Shown here one piece after another: positions 5,801-22,092 of a stretch of 64,000 nt of DNA. The translations under genes and the position numbers were made by a program. The notes under the pieces are model-generated. The model was not told where the DNA came from. It was given only the letters and a program-made list of their open reading frames with translations, and did no database searches. The stretch is from assembly GCA_903873705.1 (NCBI GenBank), contig CAIQPK010000072.1, forward strand, positions 124,001 to 188,000, given 5' to 3'. Every line of letters begins with the position of its first letter. Positions within the stretch are counted from its first letter, which is position 1. Source of the stretch: an uncultured Acidobacteriota bacterium (lineage in GTDB: Bacteria > Acidobacteriota > Terriglobia > Terriglobales > Acidobacteriaceae).

Positions 5801-7435
5801 CTGCATCCGTCGGTGCCGCTGGTGTTTTTGAGCCAGCCCTCGGCGAAGGGAATGCAGGCGGCGGGGATCGTGTCGTCGTGGTTTGGCGTGTTGACGGATT
5901 ATCACGCGGTGCGCTTTCCGGTGACGTTCGGATCGATTCCGCAGGGCAATGCGATTGTGTTTGCGGAGAGCGCGTCGCAGTTGCCGGCGTCGCTGGGGAT
6001 TAGTGCGAGTTCCGGGCCGACGATTGCGATGCGGACTAATCCTTACGATCCGTATTCCAAGATTCTGGTGCTGGTCGGGGATACTCCCGAGGACCTGCTG
6101 ACCGCTGCCAAGGTGTTGACGCTGCAGCGGGACCAGTTGGCCGGGGACATACAGACGGTACGGCTGGCGCAGGATGTGAAGCGAAGGCAGCCCGACGACG
6201 CTCCTCGCTGGATGAGTACCGACCCGAAACATATTGTGACTCTGGGCGATATTGCCCAGCAGGGAGACTTGCAGGGTGACAGCAGTGTGCCGATCACGGT
6301 GTATGCGCGGCTGCCGCCGGATCTTTATTACGGTGCTCGGCAGAACCTCGCGTTCCAGATGAACTATCGCTACAACGCGATACCGCTGGCGAATGAGAGC
6401 ACGCTGCAGGTGTATCAGAATGGCGCTTACGTGAGTTCGACTCCGATGCCGCATACGGACAAGGCGTCGGTGGACTTGCGGACGGTGATACCGATTCCGG
6501 TTGTGGACATGCGGCCGTTTTCGAACTCGCTGATGATGCGGTTTATTTTCCAGATTGCGAAGAAGGGCCGCTGCCTGGATACGGCTCCGATGAACTTGCA
6601 GGGCGCGGTGCGCAAGAGCTCTTACCTGGACATCAGCGATATTCCGCACTGGACGCAGATGCCGAACCTGGAGATTTTTGCGAACGCGGGCTACCCGTTT
6701 ACGCGGATGGCTGATCTATCGGATACGGCGGTGGTGCTGCCGGATACGCCGACGCCCGAGGAACTGGAGCTTTACCTGACACTGATGGGACACTTTGGCG
6801 CGCAGACCGGTTACCCGGTGCTGAACGTGACGGTGACCAATGCTGACGGGATCAAGAACGACAGCTCGAAGGACTACCTGATGCTGGGCACGGTGGACGA
6901 TATGTCGGGTGCGATTGCGAAGGTGGGCGAAGGACTGCCGGTGAAGATACAGAACGGCGGACTGAAGATCGAAGACACGACGGGCTTCTTTACGGCGATC
7001 CAGAATGCATGGTGGATTGTGCCTAGCTCGGACCGTGTGGAAAGCGGCAAGCTGGAGACGGCGGGCGAACTCCCTGAGGCGCTGGTTGAGGGAATCGAAT
7101 GGCCGCGGGGAAGCAGCAAGTCCGTGGTGATGATCGCGCTGCGGGACAAGTCGGTTGTGCCCAACTTCCTTTCGGTGTTCCTGAAGACGTCGCAGTCGTC
7201 GGACATTTCGGGGTCGGTGAGTGTGTTGAAGGGGGCACGGTTTGCGTCGTACCGCATCGGCAACGATGTGTACCACGTGGGGTCGCTGTCTCCGCTGATC
7301 CAGATCCAGATATTGTTCTCGCAGTTTCCGTGGCTACCGGTGATTGCGGCGGTGCTGGCGTGCTTCCTGATGGCGGTGCTGCTGCGCGCGATGTTGCGGC
7401 GGCGGGCGCGGAGGCGGTTGCTGGGTGAGGATTAG
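2831..7435 (+). CDS. bcsA: BcsA-BcsB fusion, cellulose synthase
   Basis: 1534 aa. The BcsA half (about 1-735) has N-terminal membrane helices and then a GT2 domain with D190/D191, DxD (D238-C-D240), TED (333-335) and QRIRW (371-375), the signature of processive UDP-glucose-using synthases. More membrane helices follow, then a PilZ domain with RxxxR (609-613) and DLSSGG (636-641), which binds cyclic di-GMP. From about residue 750 there is a basic stretch, a hydrophobic segment and Ala-Gln-Ala-like cleavage residues. This looks like a signal peptide left inside the fusion, and it opens the BcsB half (periplasmic carbohydrate-binding and flavodoxin-like domains), which ends in a C-terminal membrane anchor (about 1500-1525). 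Fused BcsAB is known from acetic acid bacteria. It polymerises glucan and threads it across the inner membrane. Activity should depend on cyclic di-GMP. Confidence 0.95.
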   Translation: MTRSPLWREFESGDGPLLVLLRFMILAGGGVFLIFAGALELTWPQQALMGLVMLVISIWMDRASTSYLVTLTLMIMSCFATFRYGYWRITTVIKFFADPGTKWTPLDAFFICLLVGAEGYSFAILALGFLQTLWPLRRTPVPLPEDTDEWPEVDLLIPSYNEPLNIVRYTALAAMNIDWPADKLNVYILDDGKREEFRAFAEEAGIGYMTRDDNAHAKAGNINRALERLEAPFVAIFDCDHVPTRSFLQLTMGWFNRDKNLGLLQTPHHFYSPDPFERNLDQFRTIPNEGELFYGIVQDGNDFWNATFFCGSCAVIRRTAIDEIGGIAVETVTEDAHTSLRMQMNGWNTAYINIPQAAGLATERLSGHVKQRIRWARGMIQILRTDNPLFATGLGAFQRLCYFNAMTHFMYAFPRLIFLTSPLIYLVLGHTNIPGYWAAIFAYALPHLVLSNITNSRIQGQHRHSFWNEIYETVLAPYIFLPTMMALINPKLGSFNVTAKGGVVNKSFFDTRIAQPFLVLLGLNFVGIVCGFFRFFQFPGAHIPPVFNSGGNAILDAIANLPDTIVNIPANLFDGDHPGTIVMNLIWTVFNIVILGVATAVAWESQQRRQTVRVTMAVPANVMLPDGTMVEGVTMDLSSGGVMMRTETEITHPPGTIIQLVFPVLDGDATLPATIVAIDDDRTLRAYFNPLNMQEEEALTMVLYSRADTWLGWGETREPDKPLLSLWRILQLSYHGLMQTARGMMKSTKKSSKGKLATSVVPLLLMLAVLPGLGMKARAQVAPPALTAGVPPTTQTSGVDGGVPVRAVPAGTFDNIFTLADVGPAETIVLRGVDAYHSVYFSVPQTQIVKTATLKLHYHFSPGLLPALSHLKVSINGTLFATLPVVNGPSVPVQDNADGKTPAQSAVVVSNENSAVMEATLSMPAEMLVHDNELTFEFIGHYTLQCEDPSHTTLWGHVDSNSSIELAGSLLPLQNDLKLLPLPFYDGAVNLHPSVPLVFLSQPSAKGMQAAGIVSSWFGVLTDYHAVRFPVTFGSIPQGNAIVFAESASQLPASLGISASSGPTIAMRTNPYDPYSKILVLVGDTPEDLLTAAKVLTLQRDQLAGDIQTVRLAQDVKRRQPDDAPRWMSTDPKHIVTLGDIAQQGDLQGDSSVPITVYARLPPDLYYGARQNLAFQMNYRYNAIPLANESTLQVYQNGAYVSSTPMPHTDKASVDLRTVIPIPVVDMRPFSNSLMMRFIFQIAKKGRCLDTAPMNLQGAVRKSSYLDISDIPHWTQMPNLEIFANAGYPFTRMADLSDTAVVLPDTPTPEELELYLTLMGHFGAQTGYPVLNVTVTNADGIKNDSSKDYLMLGTVDDMSGAIAKVGEGLPVKIQNGGLKIEDTTGFFTAIQNAWWIVPSSDRVESGKLETAGELPEALVEGIEWPRGSSKSVVMIALRDKSVVPNFLSVFLKTSQSSDISGSVSVLKGARFASYRIGNDVYHVGSLSPLIQIQILFSQFPWLPVIAAVLACFLMAVLLRAMLRRRARRRLLGED

Positions 7436-7466
7436 CTGGGTGTCGGGGAAGCAGGGAGGCAGCAGG

Positions 7467-8645
7467 ATGTTGAACGTCGGCTGGATGAAGGGCAAGATTG
7501 CTCTGCGGCAGGCGATGACGGCCGTGCTGGTGCTGACGTGCTGCTTGCAGGGCGGCTGCCGGGCGGAGGCGCCGTGGCCGCTGTGGGACGCGTATGCGCA
7601 GAAGTTCATGGACGACCAGGGGCGGGTGATCGACCACTCCGGGGGCGACCGGACGACCACCGAGGGCGAGGCGTATGCGATGTTCTTCGCGCTGGTTGCG
7701 GGAGACCGGTCGCGGTTTGACAAGCTGGTGAAGTGGACCGAGGAGAACCTGGCGCAGGGCGATTTGACCGCTCGGCTGCCGGCTTGGAGCTGGGGCAAGG
7801 CACCGGATGGGAGCTGGAAGATTCTGGATAACCATCCGGCGTCGGATGCGGACCTGTGGATGGCTTATGCGCTGTGCGAGGCGGGGCGGCTGTGGAAGTA
7901 TCCGCGGTATGAGAAGCTGGGCGACCTGATGGCGTCGCGGGTGGCTCAGCAGGAGGTGGTGCTGGTCCCTGGGGTGGGGACGCTGCTGATTCCGGGGGCT
8001 GAGGGATTCCATCCGGACGAGACGACGTGGTTTGTGAACCCGAGCTACATGCCTCCGCAGCTGCTGGAGTATTTTGCGAAGCGGAACCCTGCGGCGCCGT
8101 GGGGATCGGTGCTGGAGAGTTTGCCGGCGGTGGTGCATACGGATGGCGGCTTTGTGATGGATTGGGTGAAGGCGGGGGGAAGCGGGGTGCAGGCTTCGGT
8201 GAGTCCGGCGAAGCTGGTGAATGGGCCTTCGACGGACGCGCCGGTGGGGAGTTATGACGCAATACGGGTTTATCTGTGGCTGGGTATGGCCGATCCGAAT
8301 ACGCCGGGGGTCACTGCAGGGATGCAGGAGCTGGGTGGGATGATGGCTTATTTGAAGGCGCACCCTTTCCCTCCGCAGAGCGTGGATGCGACGGGTAAGG
8401 TGCTGTCGCCGGACGCGCCGGTGGGGTTTTCTGCTGCGGTGATACCCTATCTTCATACCCTTGGCATGAAGTCTGAAGAGCGTACGCAGAGCGACCGGAT
8501 GATTGCTCTACGGGACGACAAGACCGGCCTGTTCGGACGGGATGTGGCTTACTACGACCAAAATCTGGCGCTGTTTGCGACGGGGTGGACGGAGCAGCGG
8601 TTTCGGTTTGAGAAGGATGGGAAGCTGCGCTTGAAGTGGAAATGA
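7467..8645 (+). CDS. bcsZ: BcsZ endo-1,4-glucanase, glycoside hydrolase family 8
   Basis: 392 aa from ATG 7467, chosen because GGAGG lies 7 bases upstream. An in-frame GTG at 7425 overlaps bcsAB and has no better site. The N-terminus is a signal peptide (basic residues, then MTAVLVLTCCLQGG). The mature protein shows the GH8 pattern of BcsZ: TTEGEAY with the probable catalytic acid E66, and SDADLW with D127/D129 in the conserved Asp region, followed by AYALCEAGRLW. In other bacteria BcsZ is a periplasmic endoglucanase that trims the nascent chain and influences fibre formation. Its position between bcsAB and bcsC is the usual one. Confidence 0.92.
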   Translation: MLNVGWMKGKIALRQAMTAVLVLTCCLQGGCRAEAPWPLWDAYAQKFMDDQGRVIDHSGGDRTTTEGEAYAMFFALVAGDRSRFDKLVKWTEENLAQGDLTARLPAWSWGKAPDGSWKILDNHPASDADLWMAYALCEAGRLWKYPRYEKLGDLMASRVAQQEVVLVPGVGTLLIPGAEGFHPDETTWFVNPSYMPPQLLEYFAKRNPAAPWGSVLESLPAVVHTDGGFVMDWVKAGGSGVQASVSPAKLVNGPSTDAPVGSYDAIRVYLWLGMADPNTPGVTAGMQELGGMMAYLKAHPFPPQSVDATGKVLSPDAPVGFSAAVIPYLHTLGMKSEERTQSDRMIALRDDKTGLFGRDVAYYDQNLALFATGWTEQRFRFEKDGKLRLKWK

Positions 8646-8822
8646 TGGGCGATGAGGTGCAATGGGGCCGGAGTGGGGACGAGCTGAGTAACCCGGACGG
8701 GCGGTACGGAAGCCTGAAAAACCCAACAAACGTCGCACAAAAAGCGGTAAGCTTCATAAACCAGCTGGTTTGTCTCCGATGAGGACGATGCGCGGGGGCA
8801 GGCGGGCGGACAAAGAGTTGCG

Positions 8823-11800
8823 ATGACGAAGGGTTTGCCGATTCGGTTGTGGGCTTCCGGGCTGCTGCTGTGCTCCGCGTTATGCGGACCGGCGGTGCTG
8901 CGCGGGGGTGCGCAGGCAGGGGACTCGGCGACGACGCAACTGCTTGGAAAAGCGCATGCACTGGAGGTTCGGGGCCGAATTGATATGGCCAAGCAGACCT
9001 GGCAGCAGGTGCTGCTGGTTGATCCGAACAACGCTGAAGCGCTGGCTGGGATGGCGCGGGCTGTTGATGGCGAATTATGGCGCACAGCACTACAACGAGG
9101 CGATTGCGATTGATCGCCGGGTTCCGACGGCAGTTCATGCGCAGTTGATGCGCGACCCGGATTACATGCGGACGCTGGCTTCGGTGTACTCGGCGCTGGG
9201 GCGCGACGCGGATGCCCAGCGGGTGTTGAAGAGTGCGCTGGAGCTGCCGTTTCCGGCGGATGCGCGTGGACTGCAGGCGGATACGCAGCTGCAGTATGCG
9301 GGGTTGCTGGCGGCGGCGAAGCATTATGAGCAGGCTGTTGGACTCTACCGGCAGGTGCTGGCGGCGGATACGACGAATACGGGAGCGTGGACGGGGCTGA
9401 TCGGCGCGGAGCATGCGCTGAACATGGACCAGGATGGGCTGCTGGCGTTGGGGAATATGCCACCGCAGAATTATCAGCAGGCGATGCAGGACCCCGGGTT
9501 TGAGACGCTGGTGGCTTCGGTGTACCAGGGTGCCGGCAAGCAGGATGAGGCTCAGGAAGTGCTGGAGACGTTCCTGGGCGCTATGCGCGCGGCGCGACGT
9601 CCGCTGCCGGTGGGTGCAGAGTTGCAGCTGGCGACGATTTACATGACGCGGGGCGAGTCAGACAAGGCTTATCCGCTGTATCGCGAGGCGCTGCGTGCCA
9701 ACCCCGAGAATACCGATGCGTGGAAGGGCATGCTTTCGACGCTGCACAGCACGGGACACGACCAGGAGGCGCTGGCCCAGGTGACGCAGATGCCGGCGGC
9801 GATTCGCAAGAACCTGGAACAGGACCCGGCTTATCTGCAGACGGTGGGATCGATTTATGCGGGTCTGGGACATCCGCAGGAGGCGATGAGCTTTCTGAAC
9901 CGGATTCAGCAGCACTATGCGGCACAACGCGTGGCGGCCCCGGCGGACATTGATATTCAGAGCGCTTGGCTGCTCTACAACAGCGCGAACGACGCTCCGC
10001 TTTACAAGGCGCTGATGACCTTGGGGAGCCGCACGGACCTGACTGATGAACAGCGGCGGACGGTGCAGACGATCTGGGCGAGCTGGGCTACGCGAAGGGC
10101 GAACCAGGCTGCTGCTGCCGGCAACAACAGGCGAGCACTGATGATTTTGAATGCGGCCGCGCAGGCGTTCCCGGATAATCCGGCGGTAACGAAAGCGCTG
10201 GCGAGTGGCTATGCGGCTGCCGGCCTGCCGAAGCAGGCCGTTGCGATATTTAAGGGGCAGGATTTGAGCTCGGGGTCGGCCGCGGACTACAAGGCGGCGG
10301 TGGGCGCGGCGATTGCCAATAACGATTTGAAGAATGCGGAGATCTGGCTGCGTTTTGGGCTGGAGCAGTATCCGCGCGATCCGCAGTTGCTGGTGCTGGC
10401 GGCAAAGTTTGAGCAAGCGCGCGGCGATGCGAATAAGGCGGCGCAGTATTACAAGGCTTCGCTGGCAGCGATGCCTCCGGTGGATTATGGCGCGGACCTG
10501 GCCAATGAGCTGGTGAAGCCGACGCCTGCTCGGCGGGCTACGGTGACGCAGCGTCCTGCGGACCTGGCAACGCTGCTCTCGCAGCAGGACCCGGCGGCGG
10601 CCTCGGCGGCGGTTCAGCCGGAGATGGCTCCGCAGCCGGTTTATACGCGGCCGTATCTGCCGGGGTCGGCGAACTCGACTCTGGCTCCGGTGCTGCTGAA
10701 TAATCCGCAGCCGAATCCTTATCTTGCACCGGGAAGCCCGGTGACGACGGTGCCGCATTATGACAATGTTCCGCGGTATCCGGGGTCGAGTGACCTGGGT
10801 GGGCAGGCTCCGGCGACGACGCGGGTGCCGAAGAATACGAAACTGAAGGATTATGTACCGCTGCCGCAATCGCAGGTGGAAGCGCCGGCGGGTGGCGTGA
10901 TTCGACTGCATCCGGTAGCGGCGATGGAGAGCGTTTTCGGGCCGTATGCGAGCTACGATCCTTCCGTAGAGACGCCGAAGATGGCGATGGAACGGGGCAA
11001 GGCCAGCTGGGCTGACGGGCTTCATGCGGTGTCTGCGAGCACGGGGTCGCTGTGGGGCGATGTGCTGCATACGGTGGCGTTCCAGCAGAGCAATGCGCCG
11101 CTGCTGCCGGTTTATCCGCAGCCGGGGCAGCCGAAGCCGGCACCGCAGCAGAGCTCGGGGGAGACGGGAACGAGCACACCGCCGCAGCGGAATACGATTA
11201 CGTTGCCGGATGGGACGCCGGTAGTGCCTTATGCGGATGTGGCGCGTCCGGTGGACCACAACAAGGGTCCGGCGAGTGACGCCGCGAAACAGCGGGCTGC
11301 CGCGATCAAGAAGAATCAGCAGACGGCACCGCAGAACCGGACCGGGGTAAGCGTTCCTCCGGAAGAAGACTTCAGCTCGAGTGCGGTTGATTCCGCGCAG
11401 TTCAGCACGTCTCCGGCGAATCCGGCGGCGCAGCAAGGAGCGACGGTGCAGCGGCCAGCTTCAGCGCAGGCGGCCGACGTGAATGGGCGGCAGCAGGTGG
11501 ATCCGCAGTCGACCCTTCCGCAGCAGAACGGCGACGGCTATGGGCAGCAGTATCCGCAGCCGAACGTGCGGGGTACGCGGCCGGCTCCGAGCAGGACGAT
11601 TCGGAGACAGCAGGCACCGGCGCAGCAGCCGACTACGCAGCCGGTGGGACCGCCGATGCAGTATCCGGTTTATCCTCAGCCGCTGCAGACGCCCGGGCCT
11701 CCGGTGATCGACAAGGCTTATCCGCTGCCCACGCCGCCGAGCGATCAGCAGCTGATTCAGCAGAATGTGCCGCCGTTGCGTGGGTATTACGATCCGCGGC

Positions 11801-13038
11801 CCGATCCGCTGGTGCCGTTGAATGACCGGCAGCAGGCGGAACTGGATCTGGCGACGATCGAGGGGTCGTACTCGGGCTGGATGGGCGGCACGGTGAACGG
11901 GCGGTATCGCAGCGGGACGTCGGGTGTGGACCGGCTGTCGGCGGTGGAGATTCCGTTTGAGATGTCGGGTGTGGCGAGCAAGACGGCGCGGTTCTCGGTG
12001 GTCGCCAAGGGTGTGTTTTTGAACTCGGGACTGCTGGATACGACGGCGGGTACGCTGGGAACGCAGCCGGTGCTGGGAACACTGCCGGGTGATGCGCTGA
12101 ATCCTCCGCAGCAGCAGTTTGCGACGGGCGTAGGCGGCGAGATTCAGATGACGACGAACACGTTGTCGCTGGCGGCAGGGTATACGCCTTACGGGTTCCT
12201 GGTGTCGAACGTGATTGGGCGGGTGCGGTGGCGTCCGGGCAACGGGCACTTTACGCTGTATGGCGGACGCGATGCCGTGCGGGAGACGCAGCTGTCTTAT
12301 GCGGGGCTCCATGATCCGGGCAGCCGAACGACCAATGGGAATATCTGGGGCGGCGTTGTTGAGACCGGCGGCGGCGTGCGGTTCGATTTCGGCGATGAGA
12401 AATCGGGCTTCTACGTACAGGCTGAAGGTGCTGACCTGACCGGCTACCATGTGCTGCACAATCGCAAGTATGACGGCACGATGGGCGCTTACTTCCGGGT
12501 AATGAACTGGAAGGATGTGGGGTCGCTGAACGTCGGCGGAACGATGTTTGGCGAGCACTACAACTTCAACGAGCGTGGGCAGACTTATGGCCTGGGCGGT
12601 TACTTCAGCCCTAATGCGTACTTCCTGGCGGCGGTGCCGGTAACGTTTACCGGGCATCATGGGCAGTGGTTCCACTACCTGGTATCGGGCAGCGCGGGAA
12701 TTCAGACGTTCCAGGAAGACAGCCAGACTTACTTTCCGCTGGATGTTCCGATTCAAACGGGGTTTGCGGCGGGTTGCGGGCCAACGGTACCGAATTGCGC
12801 GGTCTTTCCGGTGAACTCGAATACGGGGTTGAATTACTCGCTGGATGCGCAGGGGTCTTACCAGGCGAGCGATCACTGGTACCTGGGTGCTTTCGTGAGC
12901 GGCAATAACACCAATAACTACAACACGATATCGGGCGGGTTTTTCGCGCGGTACCTATTCCGTCCGCAGTACCAGACGGTGGAGTATCCGACTGGATTGT
13001 TCCCGGTTGAAGGCTTCCGTCCGGTGAAGGTTCCCTAA
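8823..13038 (+). CDS. bcsC: BcsC-like cellulose export protein, frame broken near the N-terminus
   Basis: Reading starts at ATG 8823 with a signal peptide and a first TPR unit (VDPNNAEALAGMARA), then runs into a stop at 9113. TPR coding continues in the +1 frame from about 9065 (NYGAQHYNEAIAID) to 13038, so one extra base near 9060-9080 would explain the break. The continuing part has three or four TPR modules (to about nt 10500), a Pro/Gln-rich low-complexity linker of roughly 450 residues (about 10500-11850), and a C-terminal beta-barrel of the BcsC_C type (about 11870-13035; motifs such as FNERGQTYGLGGYFSPNAYF). BcsC links the periplasm to an outer-membrane pore for cellulose. Frame +1 alone also offers a GTG at 8908, but its first 50 residues are Arg-rich nonsense. 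This is either a genuine lesion that would disable export or a sequence error. Confidence 0.8.
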
Positions 13039-13192: not shown

Positions 13193-15217
13193 GTGTGGAG
13201 CAGTCCATTGTCTCTTGGGGCCACTGAAGTTTCGTTGAATGGCGGGTGGGTGCGGGGTGTTCTCGCGGTAACGCTTGCGACCGCTACATGGGGAATGTCC
13301 GCGCATGCGGGTGACAAGCCGGTGCCGGATTGGGTGAAGGCCGCGGCGGCGCAGGAAGTGCCGCATTACAACGCGAAGACGAAAGCTGTCGTGCTGCTGG
13401 ACGAGACGACCTACACGGTTTCTCCCGATGGGCAGGCGGTGCAGCATGTTCGCCGAGCGGTGAAGATTCTGCGCCAGCAGGGACGGCGGGATGCGACGCC
13501 GGTGGTGTATTACGACAAGGACTCGAAAGTGCTGTCGATGCACGTGTGGACGATCTCGCCCACGGGCCACGAGTACACGGTGAAGGACAACGAGATTCTG
13601 GACTTCGCCGCGCATACGGGCGGGGGCGAGTTGTACAACGATGACCGGGTGAAGGTGATGCCCGAGCCTCCGGGGTCCGATCCAGGCGGCGTGGTGGCGT
13701 ATGAGTATGAGGTAAAGGAGCGGCCCTACCTGGCGGAGACGACGTGGTTTTTCCAGGACGATTTGCCGCGCCTGAAGCAGAGTTTTCGGCTGGTGCTGCC
13801 GCCGGGTTTCACGCAGACGACGACGTGGGCGCACCACACAGTGGATAAGGGCATCGACCTGGAAAACCAGAAGTGGCTGTGGAATATGGACAGCGTGGCG
13901 GGAATCGATCTGGATGAGATTCCGATGTCGCCCTCCGCGGGCGCGCTGGCCGGGCGCATGACGGTGCACTACGCGGGACCTACCTTGGCCATGCCGCAGG
14001 AAGGTACGTGGAAGGGCATTGGCGAGTGGTACGGCGTGCTTTCGCATGACCGCCTGGCGGCTACTCCCGAAATTTCTGCGAAGGCTGCGGAGCTGACCGC
14101 GGGTAAGGCCGACTTCTATGACAAGAGCGAAGCGATTGCGTTGTTTTTGCAACAGCAGATTCGCTACGTGGCGATCGAGATGGGCGTGGGCGGGTACCAG
14201 CCCCATGCTGCGGCGGATGTGTTTCGCGGCCGCTACGGCGACTGCAAGGACAAAGCGGCGCTGTTGAGCGCGATGCTGGGCAGCGTAGGCATCCACAGCG
14301 CGCTGCTGATGGTGGACACCGAGCGCAATGTGATCGATCCGGATGCGCCGTCGATTCTGGGCAACCACATGATCGGAGCGATCGAGATACCGAAGGGGTA
14401 CGAGTCGCCCAAGATGCGCAGCGTGGTGACGGCGGCTACCGGCAAGCGGTATTTGATTTTCGATCCGACGTGGGACAAGACGCCGTTCGGTCAGCTGGAG
14501 AACAATCTGCAGGGCAGCTATGGCGTGTTGATGGAAGGCAAGGAAAGCCAGGTGATTCGGCTGCCGGTACTTTCGCCGGATCTGAATACTGTGCGGCGGA
14601 CTGCGAGCTTCGAACTGATGCCTGACGGGGAGCTGAAGGGCAAGATTACGGAGAAGCGGTTTGGCGATATGGCTGAGCGGCGACGCGTGGTCTTTACCGA
14701 GAGCGATGCCAAGCAACAGCAGCAGTATATGGACAACATCATCCGGGGCGACTTGAGCACGGCTGCGCTGACGGACCTGAAGGTTGAGAATGCGGCGGTG
14801 CTGAACCAGGACCTGACGACGAGCTTTGGCATCGATGCGGTGCATTTTGCGACGACGGCGGGGCCGCTTCTGATGGTGCGTCCGCGGGTGTTCGGGTCAG
14901 TCGGGCTGAAGGTTGACCGCAAACCGCGGCTGCTGCCGGTGGACCTGCGGCAGACGATGCGGGCCAGCGATGAGTTCGACATTGCTCTGCCGGCGGGTTA
15001 CTCGGTGGACGAGTTGCCCGATCCGGTGAAGCTGGACCTAGGATTTGCGAGCTATGAGAGCTCGACGACGGTGCAGGGGCAGATGCTGCATTACAAGCGC
15101 GTGTACACGGTGCGGGAGGTGACGCTGCCGGCCGAGAGGTACTCGGAGCTGCAAAAAATGGCGTCAGTGATTGAGGCGGATGAGCAAAGCCGAGCGGTGC
15201 TCAAGAAGTCGAACTAA
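13193..15217 (+). CDS. DUF3857 / transglutaminase-like exported protein, intact triad
   Basis: 674 aa from GTG 13193; the start is uncertain because no strong ribosome site is visible. A signal sequence (GVLAVTLATATWGMSAHA) precedes a DUF3857 domain (about 60-230) and a transglutaminase-like domain. The papain-type triad is visible: C351 in GDCKDKA, H392 in NHMIGAIEI and D424 in FDPTWD. A C-terminal beta-rich region follows. Such proteins are common in Acidobacteria and Bacteroidetes; their substrates are not known. The gene lies about 155 bases after bcsC and 67 bases before a second gene of the same architecture, so the two are probably co-transcribed. Nothing in the sequence ties it biochemically to cellulose. 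Confidence 0.85.
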   Translation: MWSSPLSLGATEVSLNGGWVRGVLAVTLATATWGMSAHAGDKPVPDWVKAAAAQEVPHYNAKTKAVVLLDETTYTVSPDGQAVQHVRRAVKILRQQGRRDATPVVYYDKDSKVLSMHVWTISPTGHEYTVKDNEILDFAAHTGGGELYNDDRVKVMPEPPGSDPGGVVAYEYEVKERPYLAETTWFFQDDLPRLKQSFRLVLPPGFTQTTTWAHHTVDKGIDLENQKWLWNMDSVAGIDLDEIPMSPSAGALAGRMTVHYAGPTLAMPQEGTWKGIGEWYGVLSHDRLAATPEISAKAAELTAGKADFYDKSEAIALFLQQQIRYVAIEMGVGGYQPHAAADVFRGRYGDCKDKAALLSAMLGSVGIHSALLMVDTERNVIDPDAPSILGNHMIGAIEIPKGYESPKMRSVVTAATGKRYLIFDPTWDKTPFGQLENNLQGSYGVLMEGKESQVIRLPVLSPDLNTVRRTASFELMPDGELKGKITEKRFGDMAERRRVVFTESDAKQQQQYMDNIIRGDLSTAALTDLKVENAAVLNQDLTTSFGIDAVHFATTAGPLLMVRPRVFGSVGLKVDRKPRLLPVDLRQTMRASDEFDIALPAGYSVDELPDPVKLDLGFASYESSTTVQGQMLHYKRVYTVREVTLPAERYSELQKMASVIEADEQSRAVLKKSN

Positions 15218-15284
15218 GTTTGCTGGTATGACGTGGCCGCAAGGCCGAAGATGAGATTGGGTCAACGCTAAAGGAGTACAGGAC

Positions 15285-17321
15285 GTGATGATTGCAGGAA
15301 GCAAAATGAGTGCTGGACGGGTGGGGATGGTGGCGGCGATGGCGCTGTTTCTGGGGGCGCTGCCGTTGCGGGCGGCAGACTTATTTACCAAGCCGACGCC
15401 GGAAGAACTGGCGATGACGTCGCTGCCGGGGTTTCCGGGTGCACCGGCAGTCATTTTGTTTCGTGAAGAGATCACGAACGCGGACCTCCACTCCGTGCAG
15501 CACTATGAGCGCATCAAGGTGCTGACCGAGAAGGGCAAGGAGTATGCCAACGTTGAACTGCGGTTTTTCAGTTCGACGGGCTATGACGACTTTGCGGATG
15601 ACAAGCAGGTAACCGACATTGCCGGCCGCACCATCCATCCCGATGGAACGATCATTCCGTTCACTGGCAAGCCGTATTTGAAGATGATGGAGAAGGGCAG
15701 GGATTTCAAGTACCAGGCACGCGTGTTCACGCTGCCGGACGTGGAGATCGGCAGCATCATCGAGTACCGCTACGCCGAGCGTATTAACGACAACATCTAT
15801 GAAGCGCCTGACTGGTACGTTCAGGGCGATTTGTATACCAAGGCAGCGCACTTCTCATGGCTGCCGACCAACCACGAGCTTAATTCGAAGGACGGGATAA
15901 TCAATACGATCACGTGGCTGCCGATCCTGCCCGAGGGCGTCACGGTAAAACGCACCGACATGGTGGGCAAGCAGACGTTCGAGTTGACTGTGCACGACAT
16001 GGCTCCGCAGCCGGACGAGGATTACATGCCCCCGATCAGGAGCTTCTCGTATCGCGTGTTGTTCAACTACACGCCGTTTCATTCGCCCCAGGATTTTTGG
16101 AAGAGCCGGGGGAAGGATTGGTCGAAGCGGGAGGACAGCTTTATTGGACCTAGCGGGGAGCTGAAATCGGCTACGGAGAGTGTGATTGCCGGCGCGACGA
16201 CGCAGGATGAGAAACTGCGGAAGATTTATGCGGCGGTGATGGCGCTCGAGAACACGGACTACACGCGCGACCGCGATCGCAAGGAAGACAAGGCGGAGGG
16301 CGTAGGCAAGATCAACAACGCCGGTGACGTTTACAAACGTGGCCGGGGATCAAGCGATCAGCTCAATGACGTGTTCATCGGCATGGCCCGTGCGGCGGGG
16401 ATGAAGGCCTATGTGATGCTGATCCCGGACCGCTCGAAACGTATCTTTACGTCGGGGTGGACGCAGTTCAACCAGTTCGACAACAGCATCGCGATCGTCA
16501 ACGTCGATGGCAAGGAGCAGTTCTTCGATCCTGGGCAACGGTATGCGGAGTACGGTCACCTGGCCTGGCAGAACACGTTGGGTATGGGCATCCGCCAGTT
16601 GGACAGCGGGACTGATTTTGCGCAGGCGCCGATCGACAATTACACCACTACTCGCAGCACCCGGGTGGCGAACTTGACCATGGATGCCAGGGGCGCGATT
16701 ACAGGCAAGATCGATCTGACCTTCACGGGGGCCATGGCGCTGCGGTGGCGGCACACGGCGCTGCGTGGCGACGACGAGAGTCTGAAGACTGCGTTGAAAA
16801 AGAACCTGGAAGATATGCTGCCGAAGACACTGGAAGTGAACGTCACGTCGATTGAGAACCTGGCTGATTACGTGAAGCCGCTGGCTGCGCACTTCGAAGT
16901 GAAGGGCACCCTGGGCACGGTGACAGGCAAGCGCATGATTCTGCCTGCCGATGTGTTCGCGGCTGAAAACGTTCCCACCTTTCCCCATGAGAAACGCGAA
17001 CTTCCGGTGTACTTTGAATATCCGCAGACGGTTGCGGATGCGATGAAACTAAACTTTCCAGCTTCAATGAGCGTGGAGGCTGTTCCGGAGGTGACAAAGG
17101 AACTGTTTCAGAAGTCGGCACAATTCGACATGGCGGCGGTTACGGCAGGGAACAGCGTGACGGTGCGGCGGAACTACGTGGCGAATCTGATTGTGGTGGA
17201 AGTGAAGGACTATAACGATCTGCGGGCGTTCTACGCGAAGATCGAATCGAAAGACAAGGACAGCATTGTGCTGAAGATGCCGACCGAGTCGGCGAGCAAT
17301 GCGCCGGGAGGCGGAAACTAA
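15285..17321 (+). CDS. DUF3857 / transglutaminase-like exported protein, catalytic residues lost
   Basis: 678 aa. AAGGAG about 10 bases before GTG 15285 and ATG 15288 supports the start; either codon could serve. A signal peptide ends near LPLRAA. The same DUF3857 plus transglutaminase layout as the preceding gene is present, but the GDCKD position reads GSSDQ (Ser at about 357) and the His position reads FDNSIAIV. Only the Asp of FDPGQR remains. The fold is therefore expected but not cysteine-protease chemistry. It may be a binding or structural partner of the intact paralogue upstream. Its stop overlaps the stop of the convergent membrane gene (CTAA at 17318-17321). Confidence 0.85.
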   Translation: MMIAGSKMSAGRVGMVAAMALFLGALPLRAADLFTKPTPEELAMTSLPGFPGAPAVILFREEITNADLHSVQHYERIKVLTEKGKEYANVELRFFSSTGYDDFADDKQVTDIAGRTIHPDGTIIPFTGKPYLKMMEKGRDFKYQARVFTLPDVEIGSIIEYRYAERINDNIYEAPDWYVQGDLYTKAAHFSWLPTNHELNSKDGIINTITWLPILPEGVTVKRTDMVGKQTFELTVHDMAPQPDEDYMPPIRSFSYRVLFNYTPFHSPQDFWKSRGKDWSKREDSFIGPSGELKSATESVIAGATTQDEKLRKIYAAVMALENTDYTRDRDRKEDKAEGVGKINNAGDVYKRGRGSSDQLNDVFIGMARAAGMKAYVMLIPDRSKRIFTSGWTQFNQFDNSIAIVNVDGKEQFFDPGQRYAEYGHLAWQNTLGMGIRQLDSGTDFAQAPIDNYTTTRSTRVANLTMDARGAITGKIDLTFTGAMALRWRHTALRGDDESLKTALKKNLEDMLPKTLEVNVTSIENLADYVKPLAAHFEVKGTLGTVTGKRMILPADVFAAENVPTFPHEKRELPVYFEYPQTVADAMKLNFPASMSVEAVPEVTKELFQKSAQFDMAAVTAGNSVTVRRNYVANLIVVEVKDYNDLRAFYAKIESKDKDSIVLKMPTESASNAPGGGN

Positions 17322-18847
17322 TTCGGGTTTGCGCCCTGGAGCAGGGTGCAGATTTTGACGGTGCCGTTGTTGTAAGGGCAGTTGTGTGACGTGGGTGCTG
17401 CGGAGTGAAGCAGGACCCATGTTGCGTTTAAGGGGAGCAGGCGGGCATCGCGGGCGGGGTCGGTGAGGGTGCTGAGGTTGAGTTGGGTGGTGGCACCGGC
17501 TTGCCAGGCGTCGGCGAGGGCGGGCTGGATGGCGGCTTCGCCACCGTCTTTGGAGAAGTCAGGCAGGACGCTGCGCTGGGCGGTGGCGCGGAAGGTCTGG
17601 CCGTCTTCGTTGGCGGTGGTGATGTAGTTGGCGTCGATGGCGAAGAGGGCGTTGGTGGGGGTGTTCTCGCGGGCCCAGAGGAAGGCTTGCTGCCAGGGGT
17701 TGGCGTGGGCGCGGTGGGGGAGCTCAAGGTGGAGCGAGGCGGGGAAGGTCTGGCGCTGGACGGTGAACATGATGGCGGCCATGACGAGGACGAAAGCGGG
17801 AGCGAGGACGCCAAGTTTGCGCGAGGTGAGTTCAGCCAGGGTGCCGCCTAGAAGGATGATCATGACGGCGTAGATGGGGAGGAACTGGCGGAGGGGTTGG
17901 AGGCGGGCTACCAGGTGTGTGGGGAAGTGTTCGTGGGCGAATAGCGCGGAGACGAGGGTGGCGATGAGGCCGATGGCTATGGCGGCTCGGCAGAGAGCGG
18001 CTTGCGGGGTGGTGGGGTTGGTGGAGCGCAGGAGCAGGGTGAGGACGATGAGGGGGCCGATAATGCCGAGCAGCTCGAACCATTGCCATTGCGAGAGGAA
18101 CCAGTAGTAGCGCGAAAAGGCGGCGGCAGTGGTGGCGGGGGATTCGGCGGGGGCGGTGAAATGGAGGAATGCGGCTGCGGCGAGGACGAGGGTGGTTAGG
18201 GTGGCGTAGGCGCGGATTTGAGCGCGGTGCGTGGGTAGTTTTGCGATGTGCAGGGCGATGATGATGCCGACGGCGTAGGCGGCCATGAGCGGGTGGAAGG
18301 CTGCGGCGGCGACCAGGGTAATTGCGCTGCGAGTGAGCGAGCGGCGGGTGGGGAGTTGCAGGGCGAAGGCGATGGCGAGTAGAGAGAGTGGCGTGGAGAA
18401 GGTGCGGGCGGTGACGTAGGGGTCCATCAAGAGCAGCGACGTGCCGGCGATGGGAAGCGTGAACCAGGCGGCGACGAGGGAGGTGGCGAGAAGTTGCGTG
18501 CGTTGTGACGGCCAGCACTGGGCGGCGATGAGCCAGGCAGCGTAGAGCGTGAGGACGATGCCGGTGAGGTCGGCGAGGAGGAGCAGCCACGGAAGGGCAA
18601 TGTGGGTGAGCCGGACGAGGGTGGCGAGTACGGGCGTGAAGAGGGAGTAGTGTGTGGTGGCGCGGACGAAGGGCAGGTCGTTGGGGAAGAGTACAGGGTT
18701 AAGGCTGGACTCGACGCCGGCAACGTAGAGGCCGCCGTCTTCTGCCAGGGGGTGGTAGCCGTGCACGGCGAAGGTGCAAAGGGTGAGCGCGGCCAGGGCG
18801 AGGCGTGGCGGGCGCGTGGAGGTCGTAATGGGAGTGGTGGTTGGCAA
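17318..18847 (-). CDS. polytopic membrane protein, DUF6798-like
   Basis: 509 aa with about ten hydrophobic segments over residues 15-360 and a soluble C-terminal domain of about 140 residues. The ordering (short N-terminus, HPLAEDGGLY near the first loop, many helices, extracytoplasmic tail) resembles GT-C-like integral membrane proteins such as the DUF6798 group. No catalytic motif can be named. The start is a TTG at 18847 with no clear ribosome site, and no better in-frame start precedes the first helix. It is convergent with the DUF3857 gene and shares stop-codon bases with it. Confidence 0.7.
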   Translation of the reverse strand: MPTTTPITTSTRPPRLALAALTLCTFAVHGYHPLAEDGGLYVAGVESSLNPVLFPNDLPFVRATTHYSLFTPVLATLVRLTHIALPWLLLLADLTGIVLTLYAAWLIAAQCWPSQRTQLLATSLVAAWFTLPIAGTSLLLMDPYVTARTFSTPLSLLAIAFALQLPTRRSLTRSAITLVAAAAFHPLMAAYAVGIIIALHIAKLPTHRAQIRAYATLTTLVLAAAAFLHFTAPAESPATTAAAFSRYYWFLSQWQWFELLGIIGPLIVLTLLLRSTNPTTPQAALCRAAIAIGLIATLVSALFAHEHFPTHLVARLQPLRQFLPIYAVMIILLGGTLAELTSRKLGVLAPAFVLVMAAIMFTVQRQTFPASLHLELPHRAHANPWQQAFLWARENTPTNALFAIDANYITTANEDGQTFRATAQRSVLPDFSKDGGEAAIQPALADAWQAGATTQLNLSTLTDPARDARLLPLNATWVLLHSAAPTSHNCPYNNGTVKICTLLQGANPN

Positions 18848-19015
18848 GTAGCTTGGCGTAAGTGCTTTGAGTTGAGGGTAGCAGCGCGGGTGCGTGCGAT
18901 GCGCGGCGCGGGAGGGAGGCTACAATAGACCTGACCGCATGGGCAAGATATTTTCAGCAAAAAGAGTGGGCCGAGTGGCCGCGGCTGCGATGGTGCGGCT
19001 GGGCGGAGATAGCCT

Positions 19016-20047
19016 GTGACGCGGGAACATCGGGTGAGTTTGCTGAAGACGCTGCCGGGGCTGTTGATCAGCTGTGGGTTTATCTGGTGGACGTTCTTTC
19101 ACCGCGACGCTCATGGAGCGCGGGGTTTTGATCCGGAAGAGTTTCGCGGCCTGCGGTTTGAGCAGCCGTGGTGGATTGTGGGCGTGGTGGTCTTTACGGT
19201 GGCGGGTTATGGGATTCGCTGCTACCGGTCGTACGCGATGCTGCGGAGTGTGAAGGCGAAATTTTCAGAGTGTGCGCGGGTGTTCCTGACGTCGCTGGCG
19301 GCGAATAATATCCTGCCGCTGCGGGTGGGCGATGTGATGCGGATCTTTACTTACTCCGGAGATTTGAATGCGACGCCATCGATTATTTTGAGCACGGTGA
19401 TCCTGGAGAAGCTGCTGGATGTGTTTTCGCTGGCGCTGCTTTTTGTGGTGACGATGCACTTCAGTAAGAGCGTGTCGGAACATGTACGGACTGGGGCTGA
19501 GGTGGGCGTTGCGGTGTCGACGCTGGGCGTGCTGGTGCTGGTTTTTGGGGCGCGGACGCTGGAAGGACCGGTCAAGAAGCTGTTTGCGAAGACGAAGAAC
19601 GAAAAGCTGGCAAAGGTTGAGCACTGGCTGCTGCTGGCGATTGATTGCATCAAGCAGATTGGCGTGGCGGGGACGCTGATGCTGGTGGTTTACAGCTTTG
19701 CTGCGTGGTTCTGCGAAGGGATGTTATATGTGTCGGCTGCAAACGTGATCGCGTTGCCGACGGACCGGGTGGGGCCGTGGCAGGCGGTGGCGGAGGCGAA
19801 CCTTTCGTTTTTGATTCCCAGCTCGCCGGGCGGAATTGGGCCTTTTGAGATGGCGGCGAAGGATGCACTGGTTCGGCATGGCGCGACGGCCAGTGCGGGC
19901 GGATTGTTTGGACTGCTGATGCATGCGTGGTTGTTTGTGACGATTACGGCGGCAGGCGGCGGGATGTTCCTGGTGCACCGAGCGCACCGCGCGATGCGCA
20001 AGCCGCTGCTGGAAGAGATTGAGACGTTGCCGGTGGAACTGCCGTAG
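19016..20047 (+). CDS. flippase-like membrane protein (UPF0104 / LPG synthase TM domain)
   Basis: 343 aa, GTG start with GGAG about 8 bases upstream. It has seven or eight hydrophobic segments. The near-C-terminal motif SFLIPSSPGGIGPFE matches the conserved P-x-PGG-x-G-x-x-E of the AglD/MprF-type transmembrane family. Members without the synthase domain are thought to move lipids or lipid-linked sugars across the inner membrane; the substrate here cannot be told. The gene is followed closely by argS, separated only by a short A/G-rich repeat. Confidence 0.82.
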   Translation: MTREHRVSLLKTLPGLLISCGFIWWTFFHRDAHGARGFDPEEFRGLRFEQPWWIVGVVVFTVAGYGIRCYRSYAMLRSVKAKFSECARVFLTSLAANNILPLRVGDVMRIFTYSGDLNATPSIILSTVILEKLLDVFSLALLFVVTMHFSKSVSEHVRTGAEVGVAVSTLGVLVLVFGARTLEGPVKKLFAKTKNEKLAKVEHWLLLAIDCIKQIGVAGTLMLVVYSFAAWFCEGMLYVSAANVIALPTDRVGPWQAVAEANLSFLIPSSPGGIGPFEMAAKDALVRHGATASAGGLFGLLMHAWLFVTITAAGGGMFLVHRAHRAMRKPLLEEIETLPVELP

Positions 20048-20085
20048 GGCAGAGGGTAGATAGTAGAGCGTAGTAGGTAGAGGGA
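20046..20085. repeat. short imperfect TAGA/TAGG direct repeats
   Basis: A string of GGTAGA, TAGTAGAGCG, TAGTAGGTAG units fills the spacer between the flippase-like gene and argS. Similar purine-rich short-period tracts lie at 28334-28362, 33466-33495 and 58936-58955. Confidence 0.45.
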
Positions 20086-20094
20086 AAGAGACCC

Positions 20095-22092
20095 ATGTAT
20101 CGGATTTGGCAGCAGGCTGTTGTGGCGCGGGTGCAGGCTATTGTGGCTGAGCGGTATGGTGTGGCGCTCGGCAACCTGGTGGTGGAGCTGCCGCCGAAGC
20201 TCGAGTTTGGCGAGATGGCGCTGCCCGTGGCGTTTGAGCTGGCGAAGCGGTTGAAGAAGGCGCCGCGCGCGATCGCGATGGAGCTGCAGGCTGAGCTGGC
20301 GGCTATGGATGGGGTGGCGTCGGTTGAGGTGGCGGGTGCGGGCTATCTGAATGTGAAGCTGGATCGCGCGGCGACTGTGCGTCGCATCGCGGCGGATGAA
20401 CATGCGGCAGTGGGCGGGCCGGGGTTCCGGCTGGTTGAGCATACGAGCATCAATCCCAATAAGGCGGCGCATGTGGGTCATCTGCGCAATGCGATCCTGG
20501 GCGATACGTTTCAGCGGATGCTGCGGCCGGATGAGTTCAAGCCGGGATATGAGACGGGGGTGCAGAACTACATCGACAATACGGGCGTGCAGGTTGCGGA
20601 CATTGTGGTGGCGATCATGCACCTGCACAACATGGGGCTGGAGGATGTTCGGGAGTGGATGACCGAGCTGCTGGAGACGAATCAGCGGCTGGACTATGTG
20701 TGTTGGGGGATGTACGCGCACGTGTCGCAGTGGTATGAGGCGGAGCCGGGTGAAGTGGCGGCGCGCAAGAAGCTGCGACTGGATACGCTTCATGCGATTG
20801 AGGCGGGGGACAACGAGGTTGCGGAGATTGCGGAGTTGATTTCGACGGGCGTGCTCCGTCGGCATCTGGATACGATGGAGCGGCTGGGGATCGAGTACGA
20901 CTTTCTGCCGCGTGAGAGTGAGATTCTGCACCTGAAGTTCTGGGAGACGGCGCGGCAGTTGCTGGTGGAAACGGGCGCGATGTATCTCGAAACGGAAGGC
21001 AAGAACAAGGGCTGCTGGGTGATGCGGCGGGCGATTTCTTCAGCGGCGGAGGTGACTGCGGGGCCGGATGAGGACGCGAAGATTATTGTGCGGTCGAATG
21101 GGACCGTGACTTATGTGGGCAAGGACATTGCTTATCACCTGTGGAAGTTCGGGTTGCTGGGCAAGGACTTTGGCTATGCGCAGTTTCATCCGTATGCCGA
21201 GCACATGTGCTGGATTTCTACTACTCAGGGTGAAGAGCCGCATCCGACTTTCGGTAAGGCTACAGCGATTTATAACGTGATCGATTCGCGGCAGGATGAT
21301 CCGCAGACGCAGGTGCGGGAAGCGCTGCGGGCGATGGGTTATGGCGACGCCGCGGACAATTATGTGCATTTGAACTATGCGTTTGTGGGGCTGACGGCGC
21401 GGACTGCGGCGGAGCTGGGTTATGTGCTGAGTGAGGAAGACAAGGGGCGGGCGTACATCGAGGTGAGCGGGCGGAAGGGTTTTGGCGTCAAGGCTGATGA
21501 CCTGATTGACCGGATGATTGCGGCGGCGCGGAGTGAGGTTGACGCGCGGCATCCGGAGCTCGACGAGGCGACACGGGCGGAGATTGCGGAGGCGATTGGT
21601 GTGGGAGCGCTGCGGTTCTTCATGCTGCGGTTTACGCGGAATACGATCATTGCTTTCGACTTTCAGGATGCGTTGTCGTTTGATGGAGAAACCGGGCCGT
21701 ATGTGCAGTATGCGGCGGTGAGGGCGGCGAATATCTTCCGCAAGGCCGGGGCGGAGGAGAGTGCATCGCTGGCGGCGGTGGCCGAGTTGGACCTGGCGGC
21801 CATGCTCGAGGGTGATGAGGGGACGAGCATCTGGGAGGTTTGGCGGACGGCTTCGCGGCTATCGCTAGTGCTGGAGCAGGGCATTGCGGCGGCAGAGCCA
21901 GCGGGGATGGCGAAGTATGCGTTTCAGCTGGCGCAGCAGTTCAGCAACTTTTACCAGCAGAAGAGAAATAATGTGGTGAACGAGACGGATGAGACACGGA
22001 AGGCGCTGCTGCTGGCTACGGCGGCAGTAGCTCGGCGGGAGCTGGTGAGAGCGCTGGGGTGGATGGGGATGACGGTGCCGGTGGCGATGTAG
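20095..22092 (+). CDS. argS: arginyl-tRNA synthetase
   Basis: 665 aa, ATG 20095 with a GA-rich site upstream. It is a class I synthetase that charges tRNA-Arg in the cytoplasm. An N-terminal Arg-tRNA-synthetase domain (about 1-95) recognises the tRNA D-loop. The catalytic signature AHVGHLRN is the HIGH motif (H126-V-G-H129), and GRKGFGVKADDLID stands where ArgRS proteins have a degenerate KMSKS loop. A C-terminal DALR anticodon-binding domain follows (about 530-665; FSNFYQQKRNNVVNETDETRK). It is longer than E. coli ArgS (577 aa), with extra sequence in the catalytic core (about 175-215). No other arginine gene is adjacent. Confidence 0.95.
   Translation: MYRIWQQAVVARVQAIVAERYGVALGNLVVELPPKLEFGEMALPVAFELAKRLKKAPRAIAMELQAELAAMDGVASVEVAGAGYLNVKLDRAATVRRIAADEHAAVGGPGFRLVEHTSINPNKAAHVGHLRNAILGDTFQRMLRPDEFKPGYETGVQNYIDNTGVQVADIVVAIMHLHNMGLEDVREWMTELLETNQRLDYVCWGMYAHVSQWYEAEPGEVAARKKLRLDTLHAIEAGDNEVAEIAELISTGVLRRHLDTMERLGIEYDFLPRESEILHLKFWETARQLLVETGAMYLETEGKNKGCWVMRRAISSAAEVTAGPDEDAKIIVRSNGTVTYVGKDIAYHLWKFGLLGKDFGYAQFHPYAEHMCWISTTQGEEPHPTFGKATAIYNVIDSRQDDPQTQVREALRAMGYGDAADNYVHLNYAFVGLTARTAAELGYVLSEEDKGRAYIEVSGRKGFGVKADDLIDRMIAAARSEVDARHPELDEATRAEIAEAIGVGALRFFMLRFTRNTIIAFDFQDALSFDGETGPYVQYAAVRAANIFRKAGAEESASLAAVAELDLAAMLEGDEGTSIWEVWRTASRLSLVLEQGIAAAEPAGMAKYAFQLAQQFSNFYQQKRNNVVNETDETRKALLLATAAVARRELVRALGWMGMTVPVAM

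Follow-up and report, generated by a model that had tools for sequence, protein, structure and literature searches.

Why does a bacterium keep, side by side, one transglutaminase-like gene with a complete active site and a second in which the nucleophile is lost? The question is raised by two genes of an uncultured acidobacterium of the order Terriglobales, which lie directly 3' of bcsC on the forward strand of the window, the 64,000-nt stretch of DNA analyzed here (contig CAIQPK010000072.1, positions 124,001 to 188,000). The first gene, P1, occupies positions 13193-15217 of the window and encodes 674 amino acids (aa). The second, P2, lies on the same strand at 15285-17321, 67 bases further on, and encodes 678 aa. 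Both encode a DUF3857 domain and a transglutaminase core. We consider it probable that P1 is an exported thiol enzyme, that P2 is its dedicated pseudoenzyme partner, and that the two form one functional unit, which arose before it came to lie beside the cellulose (bcs) genes of this genome. This reading draws on the sequences, domains and predicted folds of the two proteins, on a nucleophile loss that is conserved, and on the co-occurrence and adjacency of the genes.

A first-pass annotation of the window had already pointed to adjacent DUF3857/transglutaminase genes. Both open reading frames (ORFs) are present, and both domains exceed the curated Pfam cut-offs (24.6 bits for DUF3857 and 23 bits for Transglut_core) in each protein. 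The DUF3857 domain (PF12969) spans residues 78-236 of P1 (13424-13900; 2.4e-20, 73.7 bits) and residues 70-178 of P2 (15492-15818; 4.2e-7, 30.6 bits). The transglutaminase core (PF01841) spans residues 297-372 of P1 (14081-14308; 7.7e-7, 29.8 bits) and residues 296-377 of P2 (16170-16415; 5.4e-5, 23.9 bits). GTG is the first possible start codon of both ORFs, so the real starts may sit a few codons further in. The putative catalytic residue of P1 is Cys351 (codon at 14243-14245), the single cysteine of the entire ORF, and alignment places His392 (14366-14368) and Asp424 (14462-14464) with it; the residues and numbering given by the annotation were correct. The P2 ORF has no cysteine at all. 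At the three triad columns it carries Ser357 (16353-16355), Asn400 (16482-16484) and Asp415 (16527-16529), which agrees with the annotated serine and missing histidine.

This difference is not peculiar to the window. A profile scan of genome contigs recovered at least 80 loci among 192 relatives; a scan of the same contigs with the single window proteins gave no matches. Triad residues were counted in 80 neighborhoods of the window's order, one per genome, together with the window, and ORFs shorter than 500 aa or scoring below 60 bits were excluded. Cysteine, histidine and aspartate are all present in the 81 P1-type ORFs (81/81). Among the 88 P2-type ORFs the cysteine is never found (0/88), the histidine is found once (1/88) and the aspartate is kept in 86; the histidine column, Asn400 in the window, is held by aspartate in 70 of the 88. 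A second set of named records, overlapping with the first in genomes and organisms, has the cysteine in 56/56 P1-type vs. 0/84 P2-type proteins. The active-site difference is not due to chance, and the split is ancient. P1 thus carries the Cys-His-Asp triad that marks catalytic members of the transglutaminase-like superfamily, and P2 lacks it. P2 genes are mostly intact through the order, with a few broken copies (G100 and G193). Judged by sequence and model, P2 appears to be a pseudoenzyme in which the fold is kept, the nucleophile is lost and the gene is maintained. An N-terminal hydrophobic stretch is found in both window proteins, in 70/81 P1-type and in 83/88 P2-type proteins, and suggests that both are exported.

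Could P2 still catalyze a reaction in a different way, using Ser357 or some other residue as the nucleophile? The serine of the window recurs in 42 of the 88 P2-type sequences, and the aspartate is nearly always kept. The remaining sequences hold glycine (14), aspartate (7), asparagine (7), arginine (6), alanine (4), proline (3), histidine (2), glutamate (2) and lysine (1) at the cysteine column. Serine is therefore not the rule among P2-type proteins, and because ten residue types occur there, Ser357 is ruled out as a conserved substitute nucleophile. With glycine, proline and arginine among those ten and the histidine almost always gone, we regard a catalytic P2 as very improbable. A side group with divergent orientation (L254-L257) lends it a little color: all six dead members have asparagine at the cysteine position and retain the histidine and the aspartate.

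The two genes also travel together. Co-occurrence was scored in 200 genomes of the window's order, 112 of which have a strong P1 match. The counts leave out weak P1 matches (E about 1e-62 to 1e-65; five genomes, a second family), longer DUF3857 subfamilies and five genomes with weak BCSC_C matches (G041, G081, G119, G158, and G187); one genome with a P2 match of 7.6e-42 and no P1 match (G036) stands outside them. P2 is present in 112/112 genomes with a strong P1 match, and P1 without P2 was not seen among them. Where both genes are listed, they lie within 1.2 kb of each other in 108 of 110 genomes, and random placement is therefore rejected. On reading of the remaining genomes, the genes are adjacent in G014 and G103, P2 lies 4 kb off on the same strand in G087, and the two are on different contigs in G193. 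All 80 adjacent P1-P2 junctions share one strand, the gaps are short, and 11 junctions show an exact 4-base overlap. P1 comes first at 51 junctions and P2 at 29. One array (L141) reads dead-dead-active-dead, a state from which loss could give either order.

Tandem organization extends well beyond the order. Across the phylum, 98 of 199 genomes have DUF3857, frequently in tandem. We read 48 tandem arrays outside the order, 26 solo genes and 16 unpaired P2 loci, a sample and not a census, and called a member dead when it lacks the cysteine or the histidine. Some solo stretches stop at a contig end, and L143 was scored as solo only since its stretch ended at the gene end. Among the matches listed, exactly one member has both cysteine and histidine in 44/48 arrays, and at least one member lacks the Cys/His pair in 48/48. 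Beside the single active gene of these 44 arrays stand one dead partner (27 arrays), two (5), three (1) or a partner with nothing aligned at the cysteine column (11), where the core is eroded or gapped; 12 arrays in all hold a partner of this last kind. In another array, two members are active and one is dead. The 26 solo genes listed all have the cysteine and the histidine; nine of these genes belong to the same family as the window. The dead partner of L232 retains a cysteine and lacks the histidine and the aspartate. At L227, L228, L239, L312, and L313, an active gene stands beside a partner of 524-570 aa whose core is eroded or cannot be aligned. In plasmid records of Bacteroidota, an active gene precedes a dead one on two Persicobacter plasmids. 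One Aureibacter gene and four plasmid genes of Proteobacteria all have the cysteine and the histidine, with no dead neighbor. A search of viral contigs for further pairs gave none.

The dead members do not go back to one loss. Trees were built with 19 of the 81 loci of the order (window included); members shorter than 500 aa were dropped, three eroded partners were added, and three rows (two of L285 and one of L238) were left out, one of the L285 rows being active on later reading after an earlier misalignment. In the 145-row tree, the active/dead label must change five times, and starred branches force all five changes. On a tree of 56 rows chosen from that set and computed with a mixture model, five changes are again needed and three are forced. 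Forcing all dead rows into one clade was rejected (p-AU 5.8e-36). On the 56-row tree, a dead gene of 1360 aa at L251 is sister to its own active neighbor (100*), and a dead gene of L243 is sister to an active gene (99*). The dead clade that contains the window's P2 is single on both trees and spans several acidobacterial families. The dead members have several origins, not one, provided that a lost triad is never regained; the exact number is uncertain because some branches (L276 and L266) are long.

Predicted structures place both proteins in one fold. The AlphaFold2 models are confident, with pLDDT of 91.8 (P1) and 91.1 (P2), and Cys351 and Ser357 each open an equivalent predicted helix (residues 351-364 and 357-370). 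A search of the PDB with the single window proteins gave no credible match; profiles retrieved 3KD4 (BDI_1141 of Parabacteroides distasonis), to which both models align over most of its length (P1: Z 27.7, rmsd 3.4, 485 aligned residues; P2: Z 21.9, rmsd 5.1, 478 aligned residues), although identity is only 12-13%. The comparison covers the highest Foldseek-ranked chains, and families absent from these may still match. In the profile alignment, 3KD4 has YGTPLEI opposite YGDCKDK of P1. The sole solved relative found is therefore, like P2, a protein with no cysteine at the active-site position, which makes its title of putative protease doubtful as far as the alignment goes. A 2016 paper assigns 3KD4 to the transglutaminase-like cysteine proteases and states that every member of that superfamily contains a conserved triad (PMC4866520).

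The cores of P1 and P2 resemble LapG and transglutaminases, and that of P2 also protein 4.2 and Rad4/XPC, all with middling Z of 9 to 11. LapG is described as a periplasmic thiol protease (PMC13090378). It resembles P1 in the transglutaminase-fold core, which in P1 carries Cys-His-Asp (4FGO; Z 10.3, rmsd 3.9, 135 aligned residues); LapG is small and regulated by LapD, whereas P1 adds DUF3857 and C-terminal parts. P2 aligns with erythrocyte protein 4.2 (7UZS; Z 9.7, rmsd 3.8, 148 aligned residues) and with Rad4/XPC (8EBW chain H; Z 10.2, rmsd 4.0, 157 aligned residues), and since these scores are middling, the likeness concerns the core fold alone. Both of these proteins are catalytically dead transglutaminase folds; we know of no case in which either is encoded next to an active paralogue. 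Tandem M16B peptidases and TldD/TldE are bacterial paralogue pairs in which one subunit is catalytic and the other is not. Their folds and chemistry are unrelated to those of P1 and P2, and their heteromers have been demonstrated, whereas a P1-P2 complex is a proposal.

Taken together, P1 would be a thiol enzyme with a transglutaminase fold that is exported to the periplasm or outer envelope and acts as a protease (thiol hydrolase) or an acyl-transferase through Cys351-His392-Asp424. P2 would be a full-length paralogue of the same overall fold without the nucleophile, and most likely binds the substrate or P1 and so positions or regulates the reaction. A binding platform that is joined by an active subunit fits the distribution because no strong P1 match occurs without P2, yet P2 is sometimes found alone. 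The neighboring genes gave no clue to function: nine recurrent neighbors were scanned and are mostly housekeeping genes (Maf, ATP-grasp, histidine kinase, leucyl aminopeptidase, phosphoglycerate dehydrogenase, TPR, aminotransferase, SmpB, and one unmatched protein). The proposal of the first-pass annotation that the genes encode a catalytic subunit and a pseudoenzyme partner is strongly supported as a conserved genomic unit, and the two proteins may also be physical partners.

Several observations weigh against such a partnership or speak for a rival, in which P2 is an independent, non-catalytic envelope protein with its own ligand and lies next to P1 through tandem duplication and common regulation. 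Among the matches listed, a P2-type gene without a neighboring P1 was found at at least 16 loci, and the cysteine is absent in 15/15 of those with a readable column. Twelve of the 16 are in genomes that have a pair elsewhere and four are in genomes without a strong P1 match (G058, G091, G100, and G131), the one in G100 being the broken gene. No active member is visible in 3 of the 48 arrays outside the order: two dead genes adjoin each other at L243 and L314, and at L238 one dead gene stands next to a gene cut at the edge. Two of the genomes with such arrays (G239 and G262) also hold a pair of one active and one eroded gene at another place. In other arrays, dead copies outnumber the active member two or three to one, and the Cys-less 3KD4 was solved alone. 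Evolutionary distances are no kinder to the partnership. In mirror-tree tests, in which distance correlations given ArgS were computed for three locus sets (27 to 30 loci each), the correlation between P1 and P2 is 0.260, 0.288, and 0.198. P1 is more strongly correlated with unrelated neighbors, the LPG_synthase_TM gene (0.745) and the DUF6798 gene (0.816), and in the 27 bcs loci the correlations of BcsAB with P1 (0.228) and P2 (0.369) are no lower than that of P1 with P2 (0.198). Without the correction, BcsAB distances track P1 at r 0.42, whereas P2 tracks P1 at 0.82. The mirror-tree values therefore support neither a special bond between P1 and P2 nor a weaker one with bcs. An independent P2 nonetheless leaves unexplained why a strong P1 match never occurs without P2 in 112 genomes, and plain duplication does not predict that separate subfamilies evolved the same adjacency of a catalytic and a dead member. 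We consider it unlikely, though to be taken seriously, and keep to the enzyme with a dedicated pseudoenzyme partner as the probable reading.

Does the pair then belong to the cellulose secretion machine, as its place after bcsC had led the first-pass annotation to suggest? The locus of the window is bordered on the left by tRNA-Lys(TTT) (228-303, - strand). The bcs cluster (606-13038, + strand), which we judge to lie outside the unit, follows with genes for a BcsQ-like protein (606-2834), a BcsA-B fusion (2831-7435), BcsZ (7425-8645), and BcsC (8908-13038). Beyond P1-P2, the right border (17318-22092) consists of genes for a DUF6798 protein (17318-18847, - strand), an LPG_synthase_TM protein (19016-20047, + strand), and ArgS (20095-22092, + strand). 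Three loci from the genus of the window (L066, L067, and L088) have tRNA-Lys, P1-P2, the DUF6798 gene and argS, and the bcs genes are absent from the locus. Another (L064) has tRNA-Lys and the pair without bcs, and in L065 tRNA-Lys is followed by the pair and, after other genes, by the DUF6798 gene. Conversely, L259, L260, L262, and L263 have bcs genes and the same right flank as the window, and the pair is absent. Loci with P2 first (L114 and L116) likewise start next to tRNA-Lys, and L117 has tRNA-Lys, a short bcsC-like ORF (915 aa) and P2-P1, with BcsB and a second BcsC match elsewhere in the genome. Thus bcs and the pair occupy a common locus, where each appears and disappears on its own.

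If the pair served the Bcs machine as an accessory, with BcsC, the cellulose or a matrix protein as its target, a part of the counts could be accounted for. In the 200 genomes, P1 and bcs are found together in 59, the pair only in 53, bcs only in 23, and neither in 65, a positive association overall (Fisher p 1.6e-4, ignoring descent), yet inside the genera listed, whose lists are incomplete, it is not significant. In 33 of the 59, a bcs gene is found no more than 1.2 kb from the pair, and two of these genomes have the reverse gene order (G085 and G171); in 8 others the pair is unlinked on the same contig and in 18 it is on a different contig. The same right flank is found in 30 of the 33 linked cases, window included. 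Twelve genomes (L071, L072, L075, L076, L078, L080, L081, L083, L086, L087, L090, and L094) have the pair directly after bcsQ-bcsAB, although the locus lacks bcsZ and bcsC and the genome has no BCSC_C match. This placement would suit an accessory, as would the ArgS-corrected correlations with BcsAB. Set against this are the 53 of 112 P1 genomes without a bcs match, the 23 of 82 bcs genomes without P1, the exchange of either element at one locus, the lower uncorrected correlation with BcsAB, and the absence of a BcsB match from those genomes of genera g6, g10, g17, and g30 that bear the pair and were sampled. Constant co-occurrence and linkage, as expected of a bcs operon component, are not what the pair displays. 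The check that the annotation had proposed, co-occurrence beside bcs clusters in related genomes, finds mostly one locus at which each element also occurs without the other, and with 26 of 59 cases unlinked, we regard a tie to cellulose export as improbable. Independent loss, named there as evidence against a unit, does apply between the pair and bcs and largely does not apply between P1 and P2. A published acidobacterial bcs locus comprises bcsQ, bcsAB, bcsZ and bcsC, and the word "transglutaminase" is absent from the main text of that source (PMC9693552).

In the open-licence PMC literature, DUF3857 was found only as the designation of a Xanthomonas gene that adjoins lolA (PMC6341742), and no known function of the family was found there. 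The same literature, as far as it was searched, gave no description of paired active and dead DUF3857-transglutaminase genes, although one may be in print elsewhere. Catalytic genes with a dead paralogue are a known kind; the DUF3857 family, its breadth and the repeated origin of its dead members look new. The chances are about even that the split into one catalytic and at least one dead adjoining subunit, which would have happened three times or more unless lost triads can be regained, represents widespread enzyme/pseudoenzyme heteromers of the bacterial envelope, with 3KD4 as a dead member under a misleading protease title. A large share of a bacterial enzyme family is apparently organized around dead paralogues of several origins, in about 160 natural arrays. 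The pair is compact and probably exported, which makes the need for the dead twin directly testable. Two likely misreadings are also corrected, namely the pair as a part of cellulose export and 3KD4 as a protease.

A few minor observations concern the window's genome and its relatives. The genome of the window encodes a third DUF3857 protein (L289, G000:C55) of 1403 aa, which has the full triad and is alone in the stretch read. The 12 genomes mentioned above with bcsQ-bcsAB next to the pair apparently have a cellulose synthase without an outer-membrane pore. The BcsQ-like protein of the window (606-2834) has about 490 extra residues ahead of its BcsQ domain, a part of which is weakly TolA-like (below the cut-off), and its complete relatives are 735-826 aa long.

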